Of a DNA stretch of 64,000 nt, positions 11,319 through 39,301 are shown in pieces (the stretch's first letter is position 1; each line of letters starts with the position of its first letter). Position numbers and translations under genes: made by a program. Origin of the DNA: Aurantimonas coralicida DSM 14790 (GTDB taxonomy: Bacteria > Pseudomonadota > Alphaproteobacteria > Rhizobiales > Rhizobiaceae); contig NZ_ATXK01000001.1 of assembly GCF_000421645.1 (NCBI RefSeq), positions 186,001 through 250,000 on the forward strand. The letters are read 5' to 3'. The notes below the pieces were generated by a model. That model did not search any database. It was not told the origin of the DNA and was given only the letters and a program-made list of their open reading frames with translations.

Positions 11319-13967
11319 TCAGAGTCGGAAGATCGGCGCCCCGAGATCGCGGAAGTCCCGCTCGCGGCAGGTCAGGACGATGATCTGCAGATCTTCCGCC
11401 GCCTTCTGCAGGACGAGATGCATCCGTTCCAGGCGCTTCTCGTCCGTATTGACCAGCGCATCGTCGAGGATCACCGCGGCCGGATGCCCGCCCTTCTTCA
11501 GGACATGGGCCAGCGCGATGCGGGTGACGACCGCCACCTGTTCCCGCGCGCCCGCCGACAGGCGGCGGAAATCCTCCGCGACGCCGGCCCGGTGCAGGCT
11601 GCGGATTTCCAGCGTGGTGTCGTCGAGTTCGATCTCGGTGCCGGGATGAATCAGCTTCAGATACGGCGCGACCTGGGTCTTGATCGGCCCCAGCCAGTGT
11701 TCGCGCGCCTCGCGCTGGGCGCCGATCAGCGTGGTGTGCAGCAGACGCGAAGCGTCGGCTTCGAGCCTGAGGCGCGAGAGCCGCGTCTCCAGCGTGCCGA
11801 TCTCGCCCTCGAGACGGGCGATCTCCTCGCCGAGGCCGGTGGCGCCCTGGGCCCGCAGCTCGCCTTCCAGCGTGAGCGCTTCGTCCTTCAGCGCCGCCAT
11901 GTCGCGGCGGATCGATTCGAGCGCCTTCCTGCGCGTCGTCAGGGTCAGGCGCACCGTCTCCGGATCGGCATTGTCGCGTTCGCGCTGGCGCATCGCCGCA
12001 ACGGCGGCCTTGGCCGAACGCTCCAGCTCCGCGGCCGCCAGATCCTCGGCCAGTGCCGTGCGCGGCCGCACGGCTTCGGCCTCGGCGAGTTCGCGGCGCA
12101 GGCGATCGGCCTCGGCCTGCCGGAAACCGGCTTCCGACTCTGCCGCGGCAATCCTGGCAAGACTGCCGGACGCGGCCCGGCGCACCTGCTCCAGCTCGGC
12201 GCCGGCTGCATCGAGGCGCCGCCGCGCTTCCTGGCGGATCTGCCGGATGCGCTCGCCATCGGCCGCAATCGGCTCGGCGGCATCTCCCGCGGCCTCCGGC
12301 GAGAGGGCTGCGCGCCGGGCAAGGTCAGCCCGCAACTCCTCCAGCGTCGACACCGTGGCCGTCACGCCCTCGGGCAGCAGCGCCGCCAGCTGCTTGGCCA
12401 GTGCAGCCGCTTCGATCCGGCGGTCTTCGGCGACTCTGGCGCGGGCGCGCGCCGCGTCGGTCGATTCGACGCCGAAGCGTTTCAAGAGCGCCGCGCGCTC
12501 GGTTGCCGCCGCTTCGCTGTCATGGCGGAGGGTTTCCGCGTCACCGCCGGGCTCCACCACGATCCGGCCGAAGCCGTCGAGCGTGAAGCCGGTGGGGACC
12601 GTCACCCGGACGGCAGCGCCGGGCGCCACGGCCTGCCCGGCCGGGTCGGTGACGCCGGCGTCGCCGTCGGGCTCGAACCGGATGGTCGGCGCGGCCACCG
12701 AAAGGCGGACCGCGGCGTCGCGCACCCGCTGGTCGGCCGCATCGAGCGCCTTGATCGCAGCCGCGTCGATCGCCGGCGCGCCGTCGGGCCGGCGCAGCTC
12801 GGCGAGGCGCGCATCCAGCGTCCGGCCTTCCTTCAGGCGGCGCTCCAGCGCGGCGATCTCATCGGTCAGGCGCTTCACCTCGGCGCGCGAACGCTGGGCC
12901 TCGTCGGCGGCGTCGGCCTGTTCCGCGGCCAGCCGCGCGGCCTCGCGCGCCGCTTCCGCCCGCTCCAGTCCGGCCCGCTCCTCGATGCCGGCCGCCCGCA
13001 ACTCGTCGAGCGTGGCCGCACTCTCCCCGGCCACCCGCGCCGCCTCGGCAACCGTCGCCATCAGCTTGTCGCGCTGGGACAGGCGCTCGGCCGCCGCGTC
13101 GCGCCGCGCCAGCGCATGCTGCACGTCGCGCTCGGCCTCGCCGCATTCCCGGTCGAGATTCTCCGCGCGGACCGCCGCCGCTTCCGCCGCTTCCAGCGCC
13201 TGCTCGGCTTTCGGCAGAGCGGCGTCGCGCTCATAGGCGCGCAGCTTGCGCCGGCGCTCCTCCAGACGGTCGAGCCGGTCCTGGAAGTCGCGCCAGAGCG
13301 CCGTCTTGGCGGACAGCTCGTCGCGCAGCTCAGAGAGACGCTCTTCCGTCTCGCGCACGGGCGACGAGCGGGCGACCTTAAGCGTCTCGGTAAAGAAGCG
13401 GTCCTGCAGCGCCTTGGCGCTGGCGATCAGGCTGCGCCCGCGCTCGCCGCCGAGAATCTGCCCGACCTCGCCCTCCAGCGAAGCCGTCACCGCGTCGCGG
13501 CCGACACCGACATCGAGGCCGCCGGTCGAGCGCCCCTGCTCCACCCACAACAGGCCGAAGGCGCCCTGGTGCTTGTCGAGCTTGGGCTCGCCCGCGCCCG
13601 GATGGGTGAAGCGGAACAACTCGGCGAGATGCTCCTCCACCGCGTCGCCCGACAGCTTGCCGCCGGCCCAGACGAGCTCGGCCGCCGGCCGCTGCAGGAA
13701 GGCCTTGGTCAGCGTGTAGCTCGTCCCGTCGATCTCGAAACCGACCTCGACCTCGGGCCGCGCCTGCCGGTCATAGGGTCCGAGCGCCTTCACCGCCTCG
13801 CCGCCGGCCCGGTGCTTCTGGAAGAAGGCGGCGCGCAGCGCGGTCAAGAGCGTCGACTTGCCGGCCTCGTTGTCGCCGACGATGACATTGAGGCCCGGCT
13901 CGATCAGCGGCAGTTCGGCCGAGCGGATACCGGCGAAATCGGTGAGGCGAAGCGACTTCAGATACAT
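11319..13967 (-). CDS. SbcC/YhaN-like AAA+ ATPase with coiled coil
   Basis: An 882-residue ATPase of the SMC/Rad50-like class. Walker A is at residues 31-39 (GDNEAGKST), right after the N-terminal MYLKSLRLTDFAGI strand. The centre (about 170-750) is dominated by Glu/Arg/Ala heptads predicting long coiled coils. The C-terminus has the signature GAREQVAVVTRIALA, Walker B AVILDDAL and IIVLTCRERDF. It starts 3 bp after the nuclease gene upstream, so the two surely form one operon and probably one complex, as B. subtilis YhaO/YhaN or SbcD/SbcC do. The short hinge and length fit YhaN better than SbcC. Probable role: processing of DNA ends. Confidence 0.9.
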   Translation of the reverse strand: MYLKSLRLTDFAGIRSAELPLIEPGLNVIVGDNEAGKSTLLTALRAAFFQKHRAGGEAVKALGPYDRQARPEVEVGFEIDGTSYTLTKAFLQRPAAELVWAGGKLSGDAVEEHLAELFRFTHPGAGEPKLDKHQGAFGLLWVEQGRSTGGLDVGVGRDAVTASLEGEVGQILGGERGRSLIASAKALQDRFFTETLKVARSSPVRETEERLSELRDELSAKTALWRDFQDRLDRLEERRRKLRAYERDAALPKAEQALEAAEAAAVRAENLDRECGEAERDVQHALARRDAAAERLSQRDKLMATVAEAARVAGESAATLDELRAAGIEERAGLERAEAAREAARLAAEQADAADEAQRSRAEVKRLTDEIAALERRLKEGRTLDARLAELRRPDGAPAIDAAAIKALDAADQRVRDAAVRLSVAAPTIRFEPDGDAGVTDPAGQAVAPGAAVRVTVPTGFTLDGFGRIVVEPGGDAETLRHDSEAAATERAALLKRFGVESTDAARARARVAEDRRIEAAALAKQLAALLPEGVTATVSTLEELRADLARRAALSPEAAGDAAEPIAADGERIRQIRQEARRRLDAAGAELEQVRRAASGSLARIAAAESEAGFRQAEADRLRRELAEAEAVRPRTALAEDLAAAELERSAKAAVAAMRQRERDNADPETVRLTLTTRRKALESIRRDMAALKDEALTLEGELRAQGATGLGEEIARLEGEIGTLETRLSRLRLEADASRLLHTTLIGAQREAREHWLGPIKTQVAPYLKLIHPGTEIELDDTTLEIRSLHRAGVAEDFRRLSAGAREQVAVVTRIALAHVLKKGGHPAAVILDDALVNTDEKRLERMHLVLQKAAEDLQIIVLTCRERDFRDLGAPIFRL

Positions 13968-13970
13968 GGC

Positions 13971-15119
13971 TCAGCCCTTTGCCGTGCCGGAGCCGTCGGC
14001 CGCGGTGCCTAAGAGCCGGCGGTGCTCGACATAGGCCATGCGCAATGCCAGCTGCGCGGCGGCGCGCTCCGGGTCCTGCGGATCGGCTGCCCGTTCGCGC
14101 AGCCGGTCGATGGCCACGCGCACGAAGCCGCCGACATCGATCAGGTCGAGATCCTCCGCGTCCGGCTCGTCGATCAGCCCGGCGTCGCGCAGCCGCAGAT
14201 CGAAGAGCCGCGCCGACCACTCGCCCAGCGCCGCGTCCAGCCGCACCCGTTCGCGCAGCGGCAGGCTGCCGGTCAGGGTCAGGTCGAGCAGCGTCTCGCC
14301 GGGACGGGTCAGTTCCGCCAGGGCCGCGTCGAGACCGTCGATGGCGCCGTCGAGCCTGAGTTCCATCGCGCGCCAGTCGAAACGGGCGGTGCGTACCCGC
14401 TCGATGCGCGGCGCCGCGCCTGGCGCGTCGATCTCGACGATCGCCACATGGCCGGGCTCGTTGGCCGGATAGCGGTCCGGCTCGGGCGTGCCGGCATAGA
14501 CCGTGCGCGGTGCGATCTCGACGAAGCCGTGCCAGTCGCCGAGCGCCAGATAGTCGAGCCGCGCCCGCTCGGTGCGGTCGTCGGCGATCGGATTGCCGGA
14601 TTCGGCCTTGGCCGGCAGCCGGTTGGCGACCGAGCCATGGGCCAGCCCGATGCGCACGGCGCCGGCGGGCGTCTCGGCGTGGTCGAACCAGGCCGTCAGA
14701 TCGGCGCCCTCGTGGCGGCGGGTCAGCGGCGCCGGCAGGATCACCGCCGCGCCGTCCTTCAGATCGATCGGCTCCGGCCGGTCGGCGATGGCCACCGCGG
14801 CCTGGCCGCTGCGCCGGCGCAGCCGCGTCCAGACGGATTCGCTCAAGGCGGCGTCGTGATTGCCCGGCAGCATGATCCATGGGCCGGAAAAGCCCGCCAT
14901 CGCCTCCAGCGTCCGGTGCAGATCGCGATCGGACACCGTGTTGTCGTCGAAGGCGTCGCCCGCCACCAGCACCGCGTCGCAGCCGCGCGCCTGCGCCAGC
15001 GCGGCGATCCGCGCGACCACGGCGAAACGCTCGGCCCGCAGTTCGCCGCGGCGGTCCGGCTCGAACTGGCCGAAGGGCTTTCCGACCTGCCAGTCGGCGG
15101 TATGGAGAATCCGGATCAA
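13971..15119 (-). CDS. SbcD/YhaO-like DNA repair exonuclease (metallophosphatase)
   Basis: A 382-residue calcineurin-like nuclease. Metal-ligand motifs occur in order: MIRILHTADWQVG (His6, Asp9), VLVAGDAFDDN, MLPGNHDAAL, IGLAHGS and YLALGDWHG. The last 120 residues would be the capping/interaction region for the ATPase partner. It opens with TTG (the only start that gives the conserved N-terminus) and has no strong ribosome site. The partner ATPase follows after 3 bp. On the other side, 224 bp away and divergent, are ku and ligD, suggesting joint work at broken DNA ends. Confidence 0.9.
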   Translation of the reverse strand: MIRILHTADWQVGKPFGQFEPDRRGELRAERFAVVARIAALAQARGCDAVLVAGDAFDDNTVSDRDLHRTLEAMAGFSGPWIMLPGNHDAALSESVWTRLRRRSGQAAVAIADRPEPIDLKDGAAVILPAPLTRRHEGADLTAWFDHAETPAGAVRIGLAHGSVANRLPAKAESGNPIADDRTERARLDYLALGDWHGFVEIAPRTVYAGTPEPDRYPANEPGHVAIVEIDAPGAAPRIERVRTARFDWRAMELRLDGAIDGLDAALAELTRPGETLLDLTLTGSLPLRERVRLDAALGEWSARLFDLRLRDAGLIDEPDAEDLDLIDVGGFVRVAIDRLRERAADPQDPERAAAQLALRMAYVEHRRLLGTAADGSGTAKG

Positions 15120-15279
15120 GGGCTTGGCGCGGTCAGTTCGGTTGCAGGGCGAGGATGGCGTTCGCAGAACGTGCTGCCCGAGTGCCGGCCGATACGCAAG
15201 GTTGCGGCGGCACAGCCCTTAGCCATCAACCACTTTTCGCCGGCCGCCAACGCGCGCAGGGCGACGGGGTGACTCAACG

Positions 15280-15305
15280 GGAACGAGTCGCCGCCCGCGT
15301 CCGTT
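15280..15305 (+). promoter_or_regulatory. EcfG-type (general stress response) promoter for ku-ligD
   Basis: GGAAC (15280-15284), exactly 17 bp, then CGTT (15302-15305). This matches the alphaproteobacterial EcfG/RpoE2/SigT consensus (GGAAC-N16/17-CGTT) in full. It ends 38 bp before the ku ATG and points the right way. An 8-bp imperfect inverted repeat, GGTGACTC-N9-GAGTCGCC, overlaps the -35. Confidence 0.65.
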
Positions 15306-15343
15306 CTACCGGCGCGGCAGTCTGTCTTGTCTGGAGTATGTGA

Positions 15344-16309
15344 ATGGCGCCTCGTCCCATCTGGAAAGGCCAGATCCGGCTTTCCCTCGTCTCAATCCCG
15401 GTCGAAATGTTCTCGGCCACCCAATCCGGTGCCTCGATCAGCTTCCGCCAGATCCATCGCGAGAGCGGCAAGCGCATCCATTACGACAAGGTGGTGGAAG
15501 GCATCGGCCCGGTCGACAAGGACGAGATCGTCAAGGGCTACGAGGTCGGCAAGGACGACTACGTGCTGCTCACCGACGAGGAGATCGAGGACGTCAAGAT
15601 CGAGACCAAGAAGACGCTGGAGCTCGTCCAGTTCGTCGACACCTGCTCGATCCCGCCGCTCTATTTCGACAAGCCCTATTATGTCGTGCCCCAGGACGAG
15701 CTGGCCGAGGACGCCTTCCGCGTCGTGCGCGACGCCTTGCGCCAGGCCAAGAAGACCGGGCTCGGCCAGTTGTCGCTGCGCGGCAAGGAATATCTCGTGG
15801 CGCTGCGCCCCTGCGGCACCGGCCTGCTGCTGGAGACGCTTCATTACGAGGACGAGATCCGCAAGTCCGATACCATCTTCTCCGACATCTCCGACGCGGA
15901 GACCGACGGCGATCTCCTCGACGTCGCGACCCAGCTCATCGAGAAGAAGACCGCCCCCTTCGACGCCTCGAACTTCAAGAACCACTACACCGCGGCCCTC
16001 AAGGCGCTGATTGCCGAGAAGCGCAAGAAGGGCGGCAAGGCCCGCGTCACCGTCGAGGACGACGAACCGGCACCGGCCAGCAAGGGCAGCAATGTCGTCG
16101 ACCTGATGGCGACCCTGAAGAAGAGCCTCGAAAGCGGCGGCGGCGACAGCGGCGAGAAGAAGAGCGGGGCCAAGTCCGGCGCGTCGTCCGCACGGGGCAG
16201 CAAGGCCAAGACCACGCCGAAGTCGCGCAGCACCAAGGCGAGCGGCAGCAAATCGACCAAGTCCGGCTCGGCTGCGAAGGCCACCACCAGCCGGCGCAAG
16301 AGCGCCTGA
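15344..16309 (+). CDS. ku: Non-homologous end-joining protein Ku
   Basis: A 321-residue homodimeric Ku ring that binds double-strand DNA ends and recruits LigD. The core (residues 1-250) starts RPIWKGQIRLSLVSIPVEMF and contains HYDKVVEGIGPVDKDEIVKG, CSIPPLYFDKPYYVVP and YLVALRPCGTGLLLETLHY, all family blocks. The last 80 residues are a Lys/Ser/Gly-rich basic tail, longer than the minimal C-terminus, of the kind known to help threading on DNA and contact LigD. ligD starts 12 bp downstream, so the pair is an operon. An EcfG-like promoter lies upstream, which implies expression under general stress or in stationary phase. Confidence 0.95.
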   Translation: MAPRPIWKGQIRLSLVSIPVEMFSATQSGASISFRQIHRESGKRIHYDKVVEGIGPVDKDEIVKGYEVGKDDYVLLTDEEIEDVKIETKKTLELVQFVDTCSIPPLYFDKPYYVVPQDELAEDAFRVVRDALRQAKKTGLGQLSLRGKEYLVALRPCGTGLLLETLHYEDEIRKSDTIFSDISDAETDGDLLDVATQLIEKKTAPFDASNFKNHYTAALKALIAEKRKKGGKARVTVEDDEPAPASKGSNVVDLMATLKKSLESGGGDSGEKKSGAKSGASSARGSKAKTTPKSRSTKASGSKSTKSGSAAKATTSRRKSA

Positions 16310-16321
16310 CGGGTCGCGGTC

Positions 16322-18952
16322 ATGGCAGCAAAGAGCGACGCCCTGCTCGAAACCTACCGGCAGAAGCGCGACTTCGCCAAGACGCGCGAGCCCAGCGGCT
16401 CGGAGGCGGAGAAGATCGCCGGCGACGGCCTGTTCTTCTGCGTCCAGAAGCATGACGCGACGCGCCTTCACTACGATTTCCGCATCGAGTGGGAAGGCGT
16501 CCTGAAGAGCTGGGCGGTCACCAAGGGGCCCAGCCTCGACCCCGCCGACAAGCGCCTCGCGGTCCGCACCGAAGACCATCCGATGGACTACGGCACCTTC
16601 GAGGGCACGATCCCCAAGGGCGAATATGGCGGCGGCACGGTGATGCTCTGGGACCAGGGAACCTGGGAGCCGCTGGAGGATCCCGACAAGGGCTTCGCCA
16701 AGGGCAGCCTCAAGATGCATCTCGAGGGCGAGCGCATGCGCGGCAACTGGGCGCTCGTGCGGATGAAGCCGCGGAACGGCGAGAAGCGCGAGAACTGGCT
16801 GCTGATCAAGGAGAAGGACGAGGCGGTCGATCGTCGGCGCAATCTCCTGAAGGCCGACAAGAGCGTGAAGACCGGGCGCAGCATGGCCGCCATCGCCAAG
16901 GGCGACGACGTCTGGGACACCGACCGCACGGCCGACGACGCGAGCGAGGAACCGGGCGGCAAGAAGAGCAAGGCGTCCTCGACCGAGACGAAGACCGCCG
17001 CGAAGGACAAGAAGCCGTCGGCCAAGCCCGCCAAGGGCAAGGCGGCCAAGCCGCTGCCCATGCCGGCCTTTTCCCCGCCGCAGCTCGCCACCCTCGTCGA
17101 TACGGCACCGGCCGGGCGCGACTGGGTCCACGAGATGAAATATGACGGCTACCGCGTGCTGATCGCCATCGGCGACGGCAAGGTCAGCTGCTGGACCCGC
17201 AACGAGCAGGACTGGACCGAGCGCTTCACCGGCATCGCCGAGGCCGCCGCGACGCTGAACTGTCGCAGCGCGCTGATCGACGGCGAGGTGGTCGCTTTCG
17301 ACGCCGATGGCGGCACCGATTTCTCCACCCTCCAGAAGCATCTGTCGGAGGGCGGCCCCCTCTCCTGCTTCTGTTTCGACCTCCTGCATCTTAATGGCGA
17401 GGATCTGCGCGATGAGCCGCTCACCGACCGCAAGGCGGCGCTGCGCGATCTCCTCGACGGGCACGAGACCCAGACGCTGCTCTACAGCGATCACATCACC
17501 GGCAGCGGCGAATCCGTCTTCAAGAAGGTCTGCGCCTCCGGCCATGAAGGCATCATCGCCAAGCGCGCCGATGCGCCCTATCGCAGCGGCCGCTCGCGCA
17601 ACTGGCTGAAGGTGAAATGCACCCGCCGGCAGGAATTCGTCATCGGCGGCTGGAAACCGTCGGACAAGAAGAGCCGGCCGTTCTCCTCGATCCTGCTCGG
17701 CGTGATGGACGGTGACACGCTGGTCTATCGCGGCCGTGTCGGGTCGGGCTTCGACGAGGAGGCCATGGCCGATCTGAAGGCCCGCTTCGCCGATCTGGCG
17801 CGCAAGACCTCGCCCTTCGCCGAACTCGCCTCCGATGTGAAGCGCGCCGCCCGCTTCGTCACGCCCACTCTGGTGGCCGAGATCGAGTTCGCCGAGATCA
17901 CCGCCGACGGCTCCATCCGCCACGGCGTCTTCAAGGGACTGCGCGAGGACAAGGAGGCCGGGGACGTGACCGACGAGCGACCGACATCCGCTCCGGCGTC
18001 GGGGCGCAAGGGCGGCAAGTCCGCCGCGAAGGCGACCCCGTCGCCGCAGGGCACCGGCGCTGCGCCCGATCGGGTGGCCGATGTGCGGCTGACCCATCCC
18101 GGGCGCGTGGTCTTCGAGGGCCAGGGCGTCACCAAGGGCGACCTCGCACTCTATTACGAGAAGATCGCCGACCGCATGCTGGCCCATGCCGGCAACCGGC
18201 CGCTGTCGCTGGTCCGCTGCCCGCAGGGCGGCGACAAGCGCTGCTTCTTCCAGAAACACGACAGCGGTGGCTTTCCCGACGCGGTCGAGACCGTCGCCGT
18301 CACCGAGAAGGACGGCAGCAAGGCCGATTATCTCACCGTCGGCAGCGCCGCCGGCCTCGTCGGCGCCGTGCAGATGAACACCCTCGAATTCCACATCTGG
18401 GGCGCCCACAACGACAGGCTGGAAAAGCCCGACCGGCTGGTCTTCGACCTCGATCCCGACGAGGGCCTCGATTTCGGCGACGTGAAACAGGCCGCCTTCG
18501 ACCTGCGCGACAGCCTCGCCGATCTCGGCCTGACGACCTTCGCCATGGTCACCGGCGGCAAGGGCGTCCACGTCATCGCGCCGCTGGAGCGCCGCCAGGG
18601 CTGGGACGATCTGAAGGCCTTCGCCCGCGGTTTTGCCCATCTGCAGGCGCGCGAGGAGCCGGACCGGTACGTCGCCACCATGTCCAAGGCCAAGCGCACC
18701 GGCAAGATCTTCATCGACTGGCTGCGCAACGAACGCGGCGCGACGGCCATCGCCCCCTATTCCACCCGCTCGCGCGCCGGCGCGCCGGTGGCGACGCCCG
18801 TCACCTGGGACGAACTGGCCGAACTCGACGCCGCCAATGGCTTCACCCTCGACGCGGTCGCCGCCCGCCTCGAGGAAGCCGATCCCTGGGCCGACTACGA
18901 TTCGGTACGCCAGTCGCTGACCAAGGCGATGCTCAAGGCGGTGGCGGAATGA
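16322..18952 (+). CDS. ligD: Multifunctional ATP-dependent DNA ligase LigD
   Basis: An 876-residue NHEJ enzyme with domains in the order phosphoesterase, ligase, polymerase, as in Pseudomonas. The 3'-phosphoesterase (about 15-170) shows KHDATRLHYDFR (His44, His50, Asp52) and EDHPMDY. A Lys-rich linker (about 205-245) follows. The ligase has the adenylated Lys273 in MKYDGYR, then DGEVVAFD and EGIIAKRADAPY, and ends near 540. After a second Ala/Gly/Ser linker, the primase-like polymerase domain (about 580-870) has LVFDLDPDEG with its metal-binding aspartates near residue 710 and TGGKGVHVIAPL. All catalytic residues I looked for are present. Co-transcribed with ku. Confidence 0.96.
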   Translation: MAAKSDALLETYRQKRDFAKTREPSGSEAEKIAGDGLFFCVQKHDATRLHYDFRIEWEGVLKSWAVTKGPSLDPADKRLAVRTEDHPMDYGTFEGTIPKGEYGGGTVMLWDQGTWEPLEDPDKGFAKGSLKMHLEGERMRGNWALVRMKPRNGEKRENWLLIKEKDEAVDRRRNLLKADKSVKTGRSMAAIAKGDDVWDTDRTADDASEEPGGKKSKASSTETKTAAKDKKPSAKPAKGKAAKPLPMPAFSPPQLATLVDTAPAGRDWVHEMKYDGYRVLIAIGDGKVSCWTRNEQDWTERFTGIAEAAATLNCRSALIDGEVVAFDADGGTDFSTLQKHLSEGGPLSCFCFDLLHLNGEDLRDEPLTDRKAALRDLLDGHETQTLLYSDHITGSGESVFKKVCASGHEGIIAKRADAPYRSGRSRNWLKVKCTRRQEFVIGGWKPSDKKSRPFSSILLGVMDGDTLVYRGRVGSGFDEEAMADLKARFADLARKTSPFAELASDVKRAARFVTPTLVAEIEFAEITADGSIRHGVFKGLREDKEAGDVTDERPTSAPASGRKGGKSAAKATPSPQGTGAAPDRVADVRLTHPGRVVFEGQGVTKGDLALYYEKIADRMLAHAGNRPLSLVRCPQGGDKRCFFQKHDSGGFPDAVETVAVTEKDGSKADYLTVGSAAGLVGAVQMNTLEFHIWGAHNDRLEKPDRLVFDLDPDEGLDFGDVKQAAFDLRDSLADLGLTTFAMVTGGKGVHVIAPLERRQGWDDLKAFARGFAHLQAREEPDRYVATMSKAKRTGKIFIDWLRNERGATAIAPYSTRSRAGAPVATPVTWDELAELDAANGFTLDAVAARLEEADPWADYDSVRQSLTKAMLKAVAE

Positions 18953-36547: not shown

Positions 36548-39196
36548 ATGCTGCGCAGTGAAGACGGCCAGACGATCCGGCTGGAAGATTATCGCCCGAC
36601 CGATTTCATCCTGCATTGCGTGGACATGACGGTCCGCCTGTTCGAAGGCCGGGCCGAGATCGACACGCGGCTGGTGCTGGAGCGCCGCGAGGGCGTGGCC
36701 GAGGATGCGCCGCTGGTGCTCGACGGCGACGAGCTGGCCCTGACCGGCCTTGCCCTCGATGGCGCCGTGCTCGAGGCCGATGCCTATACGGCGACGCCCG
36801 ACCGGCTGACGATCCGCCAGGCCCCGGCCCGCGACCGCTTCCTTCTCGACATCGCGACCCGCATCGTGCCGGAAGAGAACACCAAGCTGATGGGGCTCTA
36901 CCGCTCCAACGGCATCTGGTGCACCCAGTGCGAGGCCGAGGGCTTCCGCCGCATCACCTATTTCCTCGACCGCCCCGACGTGCTGGCGCCCTACCGGGTC
37001 CGCATCGAGGCCGACCGTACCGCCGCCCCGGTCCTCCTGTCGAACGGCAACCCGACCGAGAGCGGTGATCTCGGCGACGGCCGCCATTACGCCGTCTGGG
37101 ACGACCCGTTCAACAAGCCGGCCTATCTCTTCGCGCTCGTCGCCGGCGATCTCGATTCCATCCGCGAACCCTTCACCACCGCCAGCGGCAAGCCGGTCGA
37201 ACTCGCCGTCTACACCGAGAAGGGCCGCGCCGGGCAGGCCGGCTACGCCATGGACGCGCTGAAGCGCTCGATGGTCTGGGACGAGCGCCGCTTCGGCCGC
37301 GAATACGACCTCGACGTGTTCAACATCGTCGCCATCGCCGACTTCAACATGGGCGCGATGGAGAACAAGGGCCTCAACGTCTTCAACCACAAATACGTGC
37401 TGCTCGATCCGCAGACGGCGACCGACACCGACTATGCCGGCGTCGAGACGGTGATCGCCCACGAATATTTCCACAACTGGACCGGCAACCGCATCACCTG
37501 CCGCGACTGGTTCCAGCTCTGCCTGAAGGAAGGCCTGACGGTCTATCGCGACCAGGAATTCAGCGCCGACGAGCGCTCCGCCACGGTGCAGCGCATCGGC
37601 GCGGTCCGGCGCCTGAAGGCGCACCAGTTCCCCGAGGATCAGGGCCCGCTCCAGCATCCCGTCCGGCCGACGGAATACAAGGAGATCAACAACTTCTACA
37701 CGGCCACCGTCTACGACAAGGGCGCCGAGATCGTCCGGATGCTCGCCACCATCCTCGGCGAGGATGGCTTCCGGAAGGGGATGGACCTCTATTTCGAGCG
37801 CCATGACGGCGACGCCGCGACGATCGAGGACTATCTCGCCTGCTTCGAGGCGGCCACGGGCGTTGACCTCTCGCATCTGGCCGTCTGGTACAACCAGGCC
37901 GGCACCCCGACCCTGTCGGTGCGCGAGGACTACGACGCCGGCGCCGACCGGCTGACCCTCACCCTGCGCCAGTCGCTCGACGAGGGCGCCGCCGGCACGA
38001 GGACCGATCCGGTCCATATCCCGGTCCGCTTCGGCCTCGTCGGCTCCAACGGCCAGGACAAGGACGCCGTGCCGACCCATGGCCCGGACGTCGAGGGCGA
38101 CGTCATTCACCTGACCGAGGCCGCGACGACGCTGGTCTTCGAGAATCTCGGCGAGCGCCCCTACCTCTCGATCCTGCGCGACTTCTCAGCCCCGGTGAAT
38201 CTCGACTTCGCCCAGAGCGAAGCCGACCGGCTGGCACTGGCACGGCTCGATCCCAATCTCTTCAACCGCTGGAGCGTCCTCAACGATCTCCTCGGCGAGG
38301 CGATGGTGCGTGCCTGCCGCGCGGGCGGGGCGGCAACCGCCTCGCCGCTGCCGGCGGAGATCGTCGACGCGGTGCTGGCCACCGCCACCGATCCCGCGCT
38401 GGAGCCCGCTTTCCGGGCCCAGGCCCTGGCCCTGCCGGCCGAACCGGACGTGGCGCGCATGCTCGGCCGCGACGTCGACCCGCAGATCGTCCACGACGTG
38501 GTAGACGCCGCCCGCCGGGCGATCGGCACCGCCGGCGTCCAGGTCTTCGAGCGGCTGGCCGCCGAGATGGCGACGGTCCAGGCCTTCTCCCCCGACGCCG
38601 AAAGCGCCGGCCGGCGCTCGCTCGCCAATGCGGCGCTCGCCTATCTGACCGCCGCCACGAACGACCCGGCGGCGGCCGAGGCGCAATATGCCAGCGCCTC
38701 CAACATGACCGACCGCCTCGCAGCGCTCGGCATCCTCGTCCATCGCTTCCCGGATGCCGCGGCGTCGCAGGCCGCGCTCGACGATTTCTACCGGCGCTTC
38801 GAGACCGACGAGCTGGTGCTCGACAAATGGTTCGCCCTGCAGGCGACCGTGCCCCGGCCCGAGACGCTGGAGACGGTGATCGCCCTCACCGGCCACGCAA
38901 AGTTCTCCATGCGCAACCCGAACCGCGTGCGCGCCGTCATCGGCACCTTCGCGGCCGGCAACCAGCTTGCCTTCCACCGCCCCGACGGCGCCGGCTATCG
39001 CTGGGTGGCGGAGCGGCTGGTCGAGCTGGACCGCCTCAATCCGCAGATCGCCGCGCGCATCGCGACCACCTTCCGCTCGTGGCGCAGCTTCGAGCCGACC
39101 CGCCGCGAGCAGGCCGAAACGACTCTGCGGCAACTGCTTGAGACTGAACATCTTTCGACGGATCTTGGAGATATCTTGGGAAGGTCTTTGAAATGA
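36548..39196 (+). CDS. pepN: Aminopeptidase N (M1 family)
   Basis: An 882-residue zinc aminopeptidase for general peptide turnover. The bacterial PepN layout is intact: substrate motif GAMEN (about 268-272), zinc site HEYFHNW (His305, Glu306, His309) with the distal Glu in LKEGLTVYRDQEF, and the NNFYTATVYDKGAEIVRM block. The long helical C-terminal domain (about 540-882) ends WRSFEPTRREQAETTLRQLL. The frame is open upstream, but similarity begins at the ATG at 36548 and AAGGGAAG precedes it. Divergent from the molybdenum hydroxylase gene. Confidence 0.96.
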   Translation: MLRSEDGQTIRLEDYRPTDFILHCVDMTVRLFEGRAEIDTRLVLERREGVAEDAPLVLDGDELALTGLALDGAVLEADAYTATPDRLTIRQAPARDRFLLDIATRIVPEENTKLMGLYRSNGIWCTQCEAEGFRRITYFLDRPDVLAPYRVRIEADRTAAPVLLSNGNPTESGDLGDGRHYAVWDDPFNKPAYLFALVAGDLDSIREPFTTASGKPVELAVYTEKGRAGQAGYAMDALKRSMVWDERRFGREYDLDVFNIVAIADFNMGAMENKGLNVFNHKYVLLDPQTATDTDYAGVETVIAHEYFHNWTGNRITCRDWFQLCLKEGLTVYRDQEFSADERSATVQRIGAVRRLKAHQFPEDQGPLQHPVRPTEYKEINNFYTATVYDKGAEIVRMLATILGEDGFRKGMDLYFERHDGDAATIEDYLACFEAATGVDLSHLAVWYNQAGTPTLSVREDYDAGADRLTLTLRQSLDEGAAGTRTDPVHIPVRFGLVGSNGQDKDAVPTHGPDVEGDVIHLTEAATTLVFENLGERPYLSILRDFSAPVNLDFAQSEADRLALARLDPNLFNRWSVLNDLLGEAMVRACRAGGAATASPLPAEIVDAVLATATDPALEPAFRAQALALPAEPDVARMLGRDVDPQIVHDVVDAARRAIGTAGVQVFERLAAEMATVQAFSPDAESAGRRSLANAALAYLTAATNDPAAAEAQYASASNMTDRLAALGILVHRFPDAAASQAALDDFYRRFETDELVLDKWFALQATVPRPETLETVIALTGHAKFSMRNPNRVRAVIGTFAAGNQLAFHRPDGAGYRWVAERLVELDRLNPQIAARIATTFRSWRSFEPTRREQAETTLRQLLETEHLSTDLGDILGRSLK

Positions 39197-39301
39197 CTCG
39201 TCAATTCGTTGACTCCCAGATTCTGCCGCAATTCCACGCTGGACAAGGTGATTCGCATTTGCTCAATTGGTAATGATTCGGATCGGCGGCGTTCCTGATC
39301 G

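Follow-up and report, generated by a model that had tools for sequence, protein, structure and literature searches.

In the 64-kb window studied here, i.e. the whole analysed stretch of 64,000 nucleotides of Aurantimonas coralicida DSM 14790, the genes for non-homologous end joining (NHEJ), ku and ligD, are preceded by a site of the type used by the general stress sigma factor EcfG. Comparison with related genomes makes it very probable that this site (15280–15305) is the promoter through which EcfG transcribes ku-ligD. The link between EcfG and ku is itself known; what is new here is that GANTC, the CcrM-type methylation site, overlays many EcfG promoters of ku, in the window directly next to the −35 element. 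This overlay was absent from an earlier reading of the same DNA from its letters alone (the sequence-only reading), which had proposed the EcfG promoter and the stress link.

The −35 element GGAAC (15280–15284) and the −10 element CGTT (15302–15305), both on the + strand and assigned by motif and conservation, stand 17 bp apart, and a further 38 bases lie between CGTT and the start codon of ku, the ATG at 15344; both distances given in the sequence-only reading agree with these coordinates. GGAG at 15333–15336 (+) is the probable ribosome-binding site of ku. The gene ku (15344–16309, +) encodes the NHEJ end-binding protein of 321 amino acids (TIGR02772, 305 bits) and ligD (16322–18952, +) a phosphoesterase-ligase-polymerase of 876 amino acids, both identified with Pfam/NCBIfam profiles. 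The proposed ku-ligD operon was borne out: the gap between the genes is 12 bp, and Ku and the full-domain LigD form a complete two-component NHEJ pair. Ku gave a single match in a profile search of the whole 4.6-Mb genome.

The motif match by itself is weak proof, since across the genome the motif does not exceed a reversed control. The window contains two matches at a spacing of 15–19 against 1.58 expected, and the genome holds 48 matches at spacing 16/17 compared to 59 for the reversed pattern. The genome scan that the sequence-only reading had suggested thus did return matches before ku and just 5' of phyR, but no excess, and motif counts were dropped as evidence. Because the counts are uninformative, conservation across relatives was tested. 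The family sample comprised 394 genomes, 256 of them with Ku; the best-scoring 150 Ku places were used, up to 450 bp upstream was read and the motif was scored from −170 to −80 relative to the start of the Ku domain. The full motif was found in 52/150 ku upstreams (25/53 genera), as opposed to a mean of 0.30 for 359 permuted motifs, the top permuted motif (14/150) being a form shifted by one base. Spacing was 16 in 29 and 17 in 23 of these upstreams, with none at 10–15 or 18–20. All seven same-genus genomes in the family sample carry the full motif, and in A. manganoxydans, the nearest named relative found (Ku 96% identical), the promoter site is letter-for-letter the same. A relaxed form, GGAAC-N18/19-TT, occurs in 89/150 family upstreams. 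In a class-wide sample the full motif was present in 11/69 upstreams versus a mean of 0.05 for permuted motifs; this sample excludes two partial Ku rows (G729, G617) and keeps L199, which has a short flank and a misplaced upstream, as a miss. Among 80 named loci, with order-level groups assigned from genus names, the full motif was found in 22/46 of Hyphomicrobiales and others, 4/26 of Rhodobacterales and 0/8 of Sphingomonadales; 7/8 of the latter have the relaxed motif. We therefore regard the motif as real because its position and conservation hold, not because of its count. That GGAAC and CGTT match by chance and ku uses a different promoter, a view that the genome and window counts would favour, is very improbable given the same place and spacing in so many genera and the failure to find any sigma-70-like hexamer pair in 15100–15400.

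Some observations weigh against the EcfG reading of the site. Even the relaxed motif is missing from the proximal stretch of 61/150 family ku upstreams. The full motif in some Rhodobacterales ku genes makes that group an only partly clean negative control. On pSymB of S. meliloti, the roughly 350 bp upstream of ligD or of ku in the ligD-ku unit (L363) show no EcfG site, a result that covers this pSymB unit. As a side observation, seven Rhizobium/Ensifer-type loci (L267, L282, L284, L293, L271, L298 and L272) have their EcfG site farther out, about 310–350 bp from ku, with a short conserved frame of about 88–102 amino acids (core type FDHRDRLILALYAQLKAERETR) in the interval, apparently in one operon with ku.

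Profile searches show that the genome encodes NepR and PhyR. The PhyR sigma2 model also hits a frame of 185 amino acids next to nepR (E 1.4e-12); this frame is likely EcfG. The EcfG promoter group is presumably ECF15. NepR was matched in 33/52 ku-bearing class genomes, but the NepR model, with 35 positions, is too short to call absence, and a comparison of motif with general stress response (GSR) on this basis was set aside. The assignment of the site to EcfG and its link to general stress, both proposed in the sequence-only reading, are thus supported by comparison, i.e. by the conserved site, the encoded PhyR and NepR and the published EcfG regulons of other genera. In the available part of the Sphingomonas melonis study, ku is listed in the EcfG regulon table with the published site GGAACGACTCTTTCTCCCATGAATT (PMC6599016), and the available text on Sphingopyxis granuli names ku-ligD in the GSR/EcfG regulon (PMC7083833). 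RpoE2 control of NHEJ in S. meliloti, to which the sequence-only reading had referred, is stated in the accessible portion of a review (PMC12844678). Since it has been published for the first two organisms and reported for the third, EcfG control of ku is of a known kind, and its spread across the family is an extension.

For the GANTC analysis, 219 ku upstreams (150 + 69) were considered, of which 117 (60 genera) have a relaxed EcfG site, and a 60-bp box around that site was examined. Some counts took each class-sample genome as a genus, giving 64 labels instead of the true 60 genera; a recount turned the 33 labels with GANTC-bearing boxes into 32 genera, and the slot counts given below (11 and 19) stayed the same. 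GANTC occurs 111 times in the 117 boxes (55 boxes, 32 genera), versus 9–35 times for seven control palindromes of equal make-up, and composition-preserving shuffles gave a mean of 17.8 sites with a maximum of 33 in 1000. Two or more GANTC were found in 31 boxes, compared to 0–5 boxes for the control words. The sites are also placed with respect to the promoter elements: GANTC lies directly 3' of the −10 in 19/60 genera (30 promoters; next best word 3 genera) and directly 3' of the −35 in 11/60 genera (20 promoters; next best word 4 genera). Shuffles reached at most 4 genera per slot. One or both abutting slots are filled in 40/117 promoters from 23 genera.

In the window, sequence comparison identified GAGTC (15285–15289, no strand) as the GANTC directly adjoining the −35, and GGAACGANTC at the ku promoter is its sole occurrence in the 64 kb. 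All seven same-genus genomes examined have GANTC next to the −35 (GAGTC in six and GACTC in one), and within the genus GGAACGANTC is kept though most of the spacer diverges. Another GANTC, GACTC at 15271–15275 (no strand), lies 5' of the −35 at offset −14, counted from where GGAAC ends, outside the 10-bp register of relatives, and is shared with G137 and A. manganoxydans. Elsewhere in the window, GANTC sites neighbour each other at 20 bp or less in just one place, 39195–39223, where three fall within 29 bp. Near the inferred transcription start, GCGGCAGTC (15314–15322, +) was noted by sequence comparison; it has the same position in the seven same-genus genomes examined and in one genome of genus g28.

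The proteins that could act on these sites are encoded: the Aurantimonas genome contains GcrA and a CcrM-like methylase of 382 amino acids with a RAMA domain, named CcrM by resemblance only. In the open-licence part of PubMed Central no report was found, judged by title, of GANTC or CcrM controlling bacterial end joining, nor of GANTC together with EcfG, and a search there combining GANTC, CcrM and the general stress response surfaced only work on alkylation in Brucella.

Several controls bear on the question of whether GANTC belongs to EcfG promoters in general. Firstly, the family's PhyR/NepR stress promoters are close to background, with 4 GANTC in 49 boxes (25/30 loci with a relaxed site). 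Secondly, EcfG-like sites of the Aurantimonas genome itself have 5 GANTC in 32 boxes, two of the five coming from ku; this control covers the loci of 30 of the 48 sites. Thirdly, a ku paralogue group with EcfG sites (group B) has GANTC in 0/23 of its promoters in the two abutting slots and in 6/23 anywhere in the box, beside 20/41 and 14/24 for ku groups A and C. Lastly, among the 20 GGAAC rows in the available part of the S. melonis table, GANTC follows only in that of ku, and one other row of the 50 in total reads GGAAA-GATTC (PMC6599016). On the promoters compared, the GANTC pattern is therefore no trait of EcfG promoters at large.

We propose tentatively, at slightly below even confidence, that the GANTC next to the −35 is a CcrM target whose methylation state alters promoter output, either directly or via GcrA. 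A less likely alternative is that the EcfG promoter is real and that the GANTC are half-sites for a DNA-binding protein that sits along a single helical face, i.e. an operator for which methylation is irrelevant. Further GANTC at −20, −10 and +11/12 from the −35 are about one helical turn apart, which together with 0 and +20/21 gives a 10–11-bp register, and pair distances are near 10, 20, 30 and 40, all of which would suit such an operator. On the other hand, any base occurs at the centre (T40 A25 G24 C22), as expected for a GANTC methylase, and 24 of the 55 GANTC-bearing boxes hold a single site.

A sequence preference of EcfG or the local base composition could also place GANTC by the −35 or −10. 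At least one nepR promoter (L359) carries GGAACGAATC, and the compound motif GGAACGANTC-N11/12-CGTT is only modestly above its reversed controls in the family genomes. The sparse GANTC at PhyR/NepR promoters, the empty abutting slots of ku group B, the low shuffle values per slot and, as far as the available S. melonis table goes, the singular position of ku among its GGAAC rows make this explanation improbable. An overlapping housekeeping-sigma promoter that depends on GcrA and CcrM and gives basal, cell-cycle-timed ku expression beside EcfG seems improbable to a like degree. GcrA is encoded, and in the accessible text on ctrAP1 it binds GANTC when methylated and spans −35 to +7 (PMC3667746), as this explanation would have it; the hexamer pair that such a promoter needs is the one that was not found in 15100–15400.

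Returning to methylation of the −35-abutting site as the reading we prefer, a number of results count against it. The GANTC pattern is patchy, with any site in only 55 of the 117 boxes, and the window fills just one register position. Nine plasmid-borne ku genes of Sphingomonadales have both abutting slots free of GANTC, one of them with a site elsewhere in the box (a tenth region is Rhodobacterales and is excluded from the nine); named-genome Sphingomonadales have GANTC at the −35 in 6/8 loci. In only 5/79 named loci do the 60 bp richest in GANTC fall on the ku promoter, and the control word GTNAC does equally well. In 388 family genomes GGAACGANTC-N11/12-CGTT gave 88 rows (78 genomes) versus about 62 for reversed controls, all hand counts, and just 9 of the 88 rows are ku promoters of our set (7/8 for the window's own genus). 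The nepR promoter of L359 (G060) also reads GGAAC-GAATC. Finally, counting by genus lessens shared ancestry but does not eliminate it. Compound-motif rows in G148 and G064 are similarly near phyR matches, and GANTC at the −35 is thus not quite exclusive to ku.

EcfG dependence and stress induction in Aurantimonas are predicted here from sequence and from relatives. Under stress, PhyR would take NepR off EcfG, and EcfG-RNA polymerase would start transcription near 15312. Ku and LigD would then be made at growth arrest, when a sister chromosome is absent as template. Methylation would be full in resting cells and half after passage of the replication fork, and full methylation would mark an uncopied chromosome, i.e. 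one without a sister for recombination. For Ensifer, the available text gives about 95% GANTC methylation in early stationary phase and, in growing cells, a rise from origin to terminus (PMC8725594). Methylation might permit EcfG, half-methylation might block it, or a phased operator protein might act instead. It is conceivable, and we hold it a shade more doubtful than the effect of methylation on the promoter, that end joining is doubly gated, with EcfG reporting stress and CcrM methylation of GANTC reporting a non-replicating chromosome.

RpoE2-induced NHEJ in Sinorhizobium meliloti through Ku2-LigD2 was reportedly described by Dupuy in 2019. The window resembles that system in having ku and ligD under an alphaproteobacterial general stress sigma factor, but it has one ku and one ligD with ku first, and a GANTC adjoins its −35. 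GcrA/CcrM promoters of the ctrAP1 type serve the cell cycle and use the housekeeping sigma factor. Caulobacter ctrAP1, as far as the accessible text describes it, shares with the window GANTC at or beside the promoter elements, with CcrM and GcrA encoded (PMC3667746); the window's core is in contrast an EcfG promoter, for which methylation dependence is only hypothesised. S. melonis Fr1 has an EcfG-type site just before ku that also reads GGAAC-GACTC, with a relaxed −10 (ATT) unlike the CGTT of the window, according to the available part of the study (PMC6599016). The likeness to Sphingopyxis granuli lies in ku-ligD being in the regulon, a comparison by regulon membership and not by site within the text available (PMC7083833). 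The portions of these last two papers that were available do not contain the word stem 'methylat'.

Upstream of ku-ligD, in divergent orientation and sharing a common intergenic region with it, lies an SbcCD/Mre11-Rad50-like pair (11319–15119). It consists of an SbcD/Mre11-like metallophosphoesterase (13971–15119, −), below the curated SbcD cut-off, and, in line with it, an AAA/SMC-like ATPase resembling Rad50/SbcC (11319–13967, −), below the curated Rad50 cut-offs. A phosphoesterase frame divergent from ku is also present in L040, L049 and L063 (genera g28, g79 and g38); within the genus it is listed for L047, L048 and L058 and not for L044, L052 and L053. The SbcCD-like pair and ku-ligD possibly form a joint break-repair module.

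What is at stake is when bacteria resort to mutagenic end joining in place of recombination. From the conserved EcfG site, ku is probably under stress control in much of the family, which would make this more than a peculiarity of rhizobia. Should the GANTC layer work, it would be a simple sensor of the presence of a sister chromosome. Phased GANTC on an EcfG promoter would then be, within the open-licence literature searched, the first found case in which a stress sigma factor is combined with replication-state methylation to choose between recombination and end joining.

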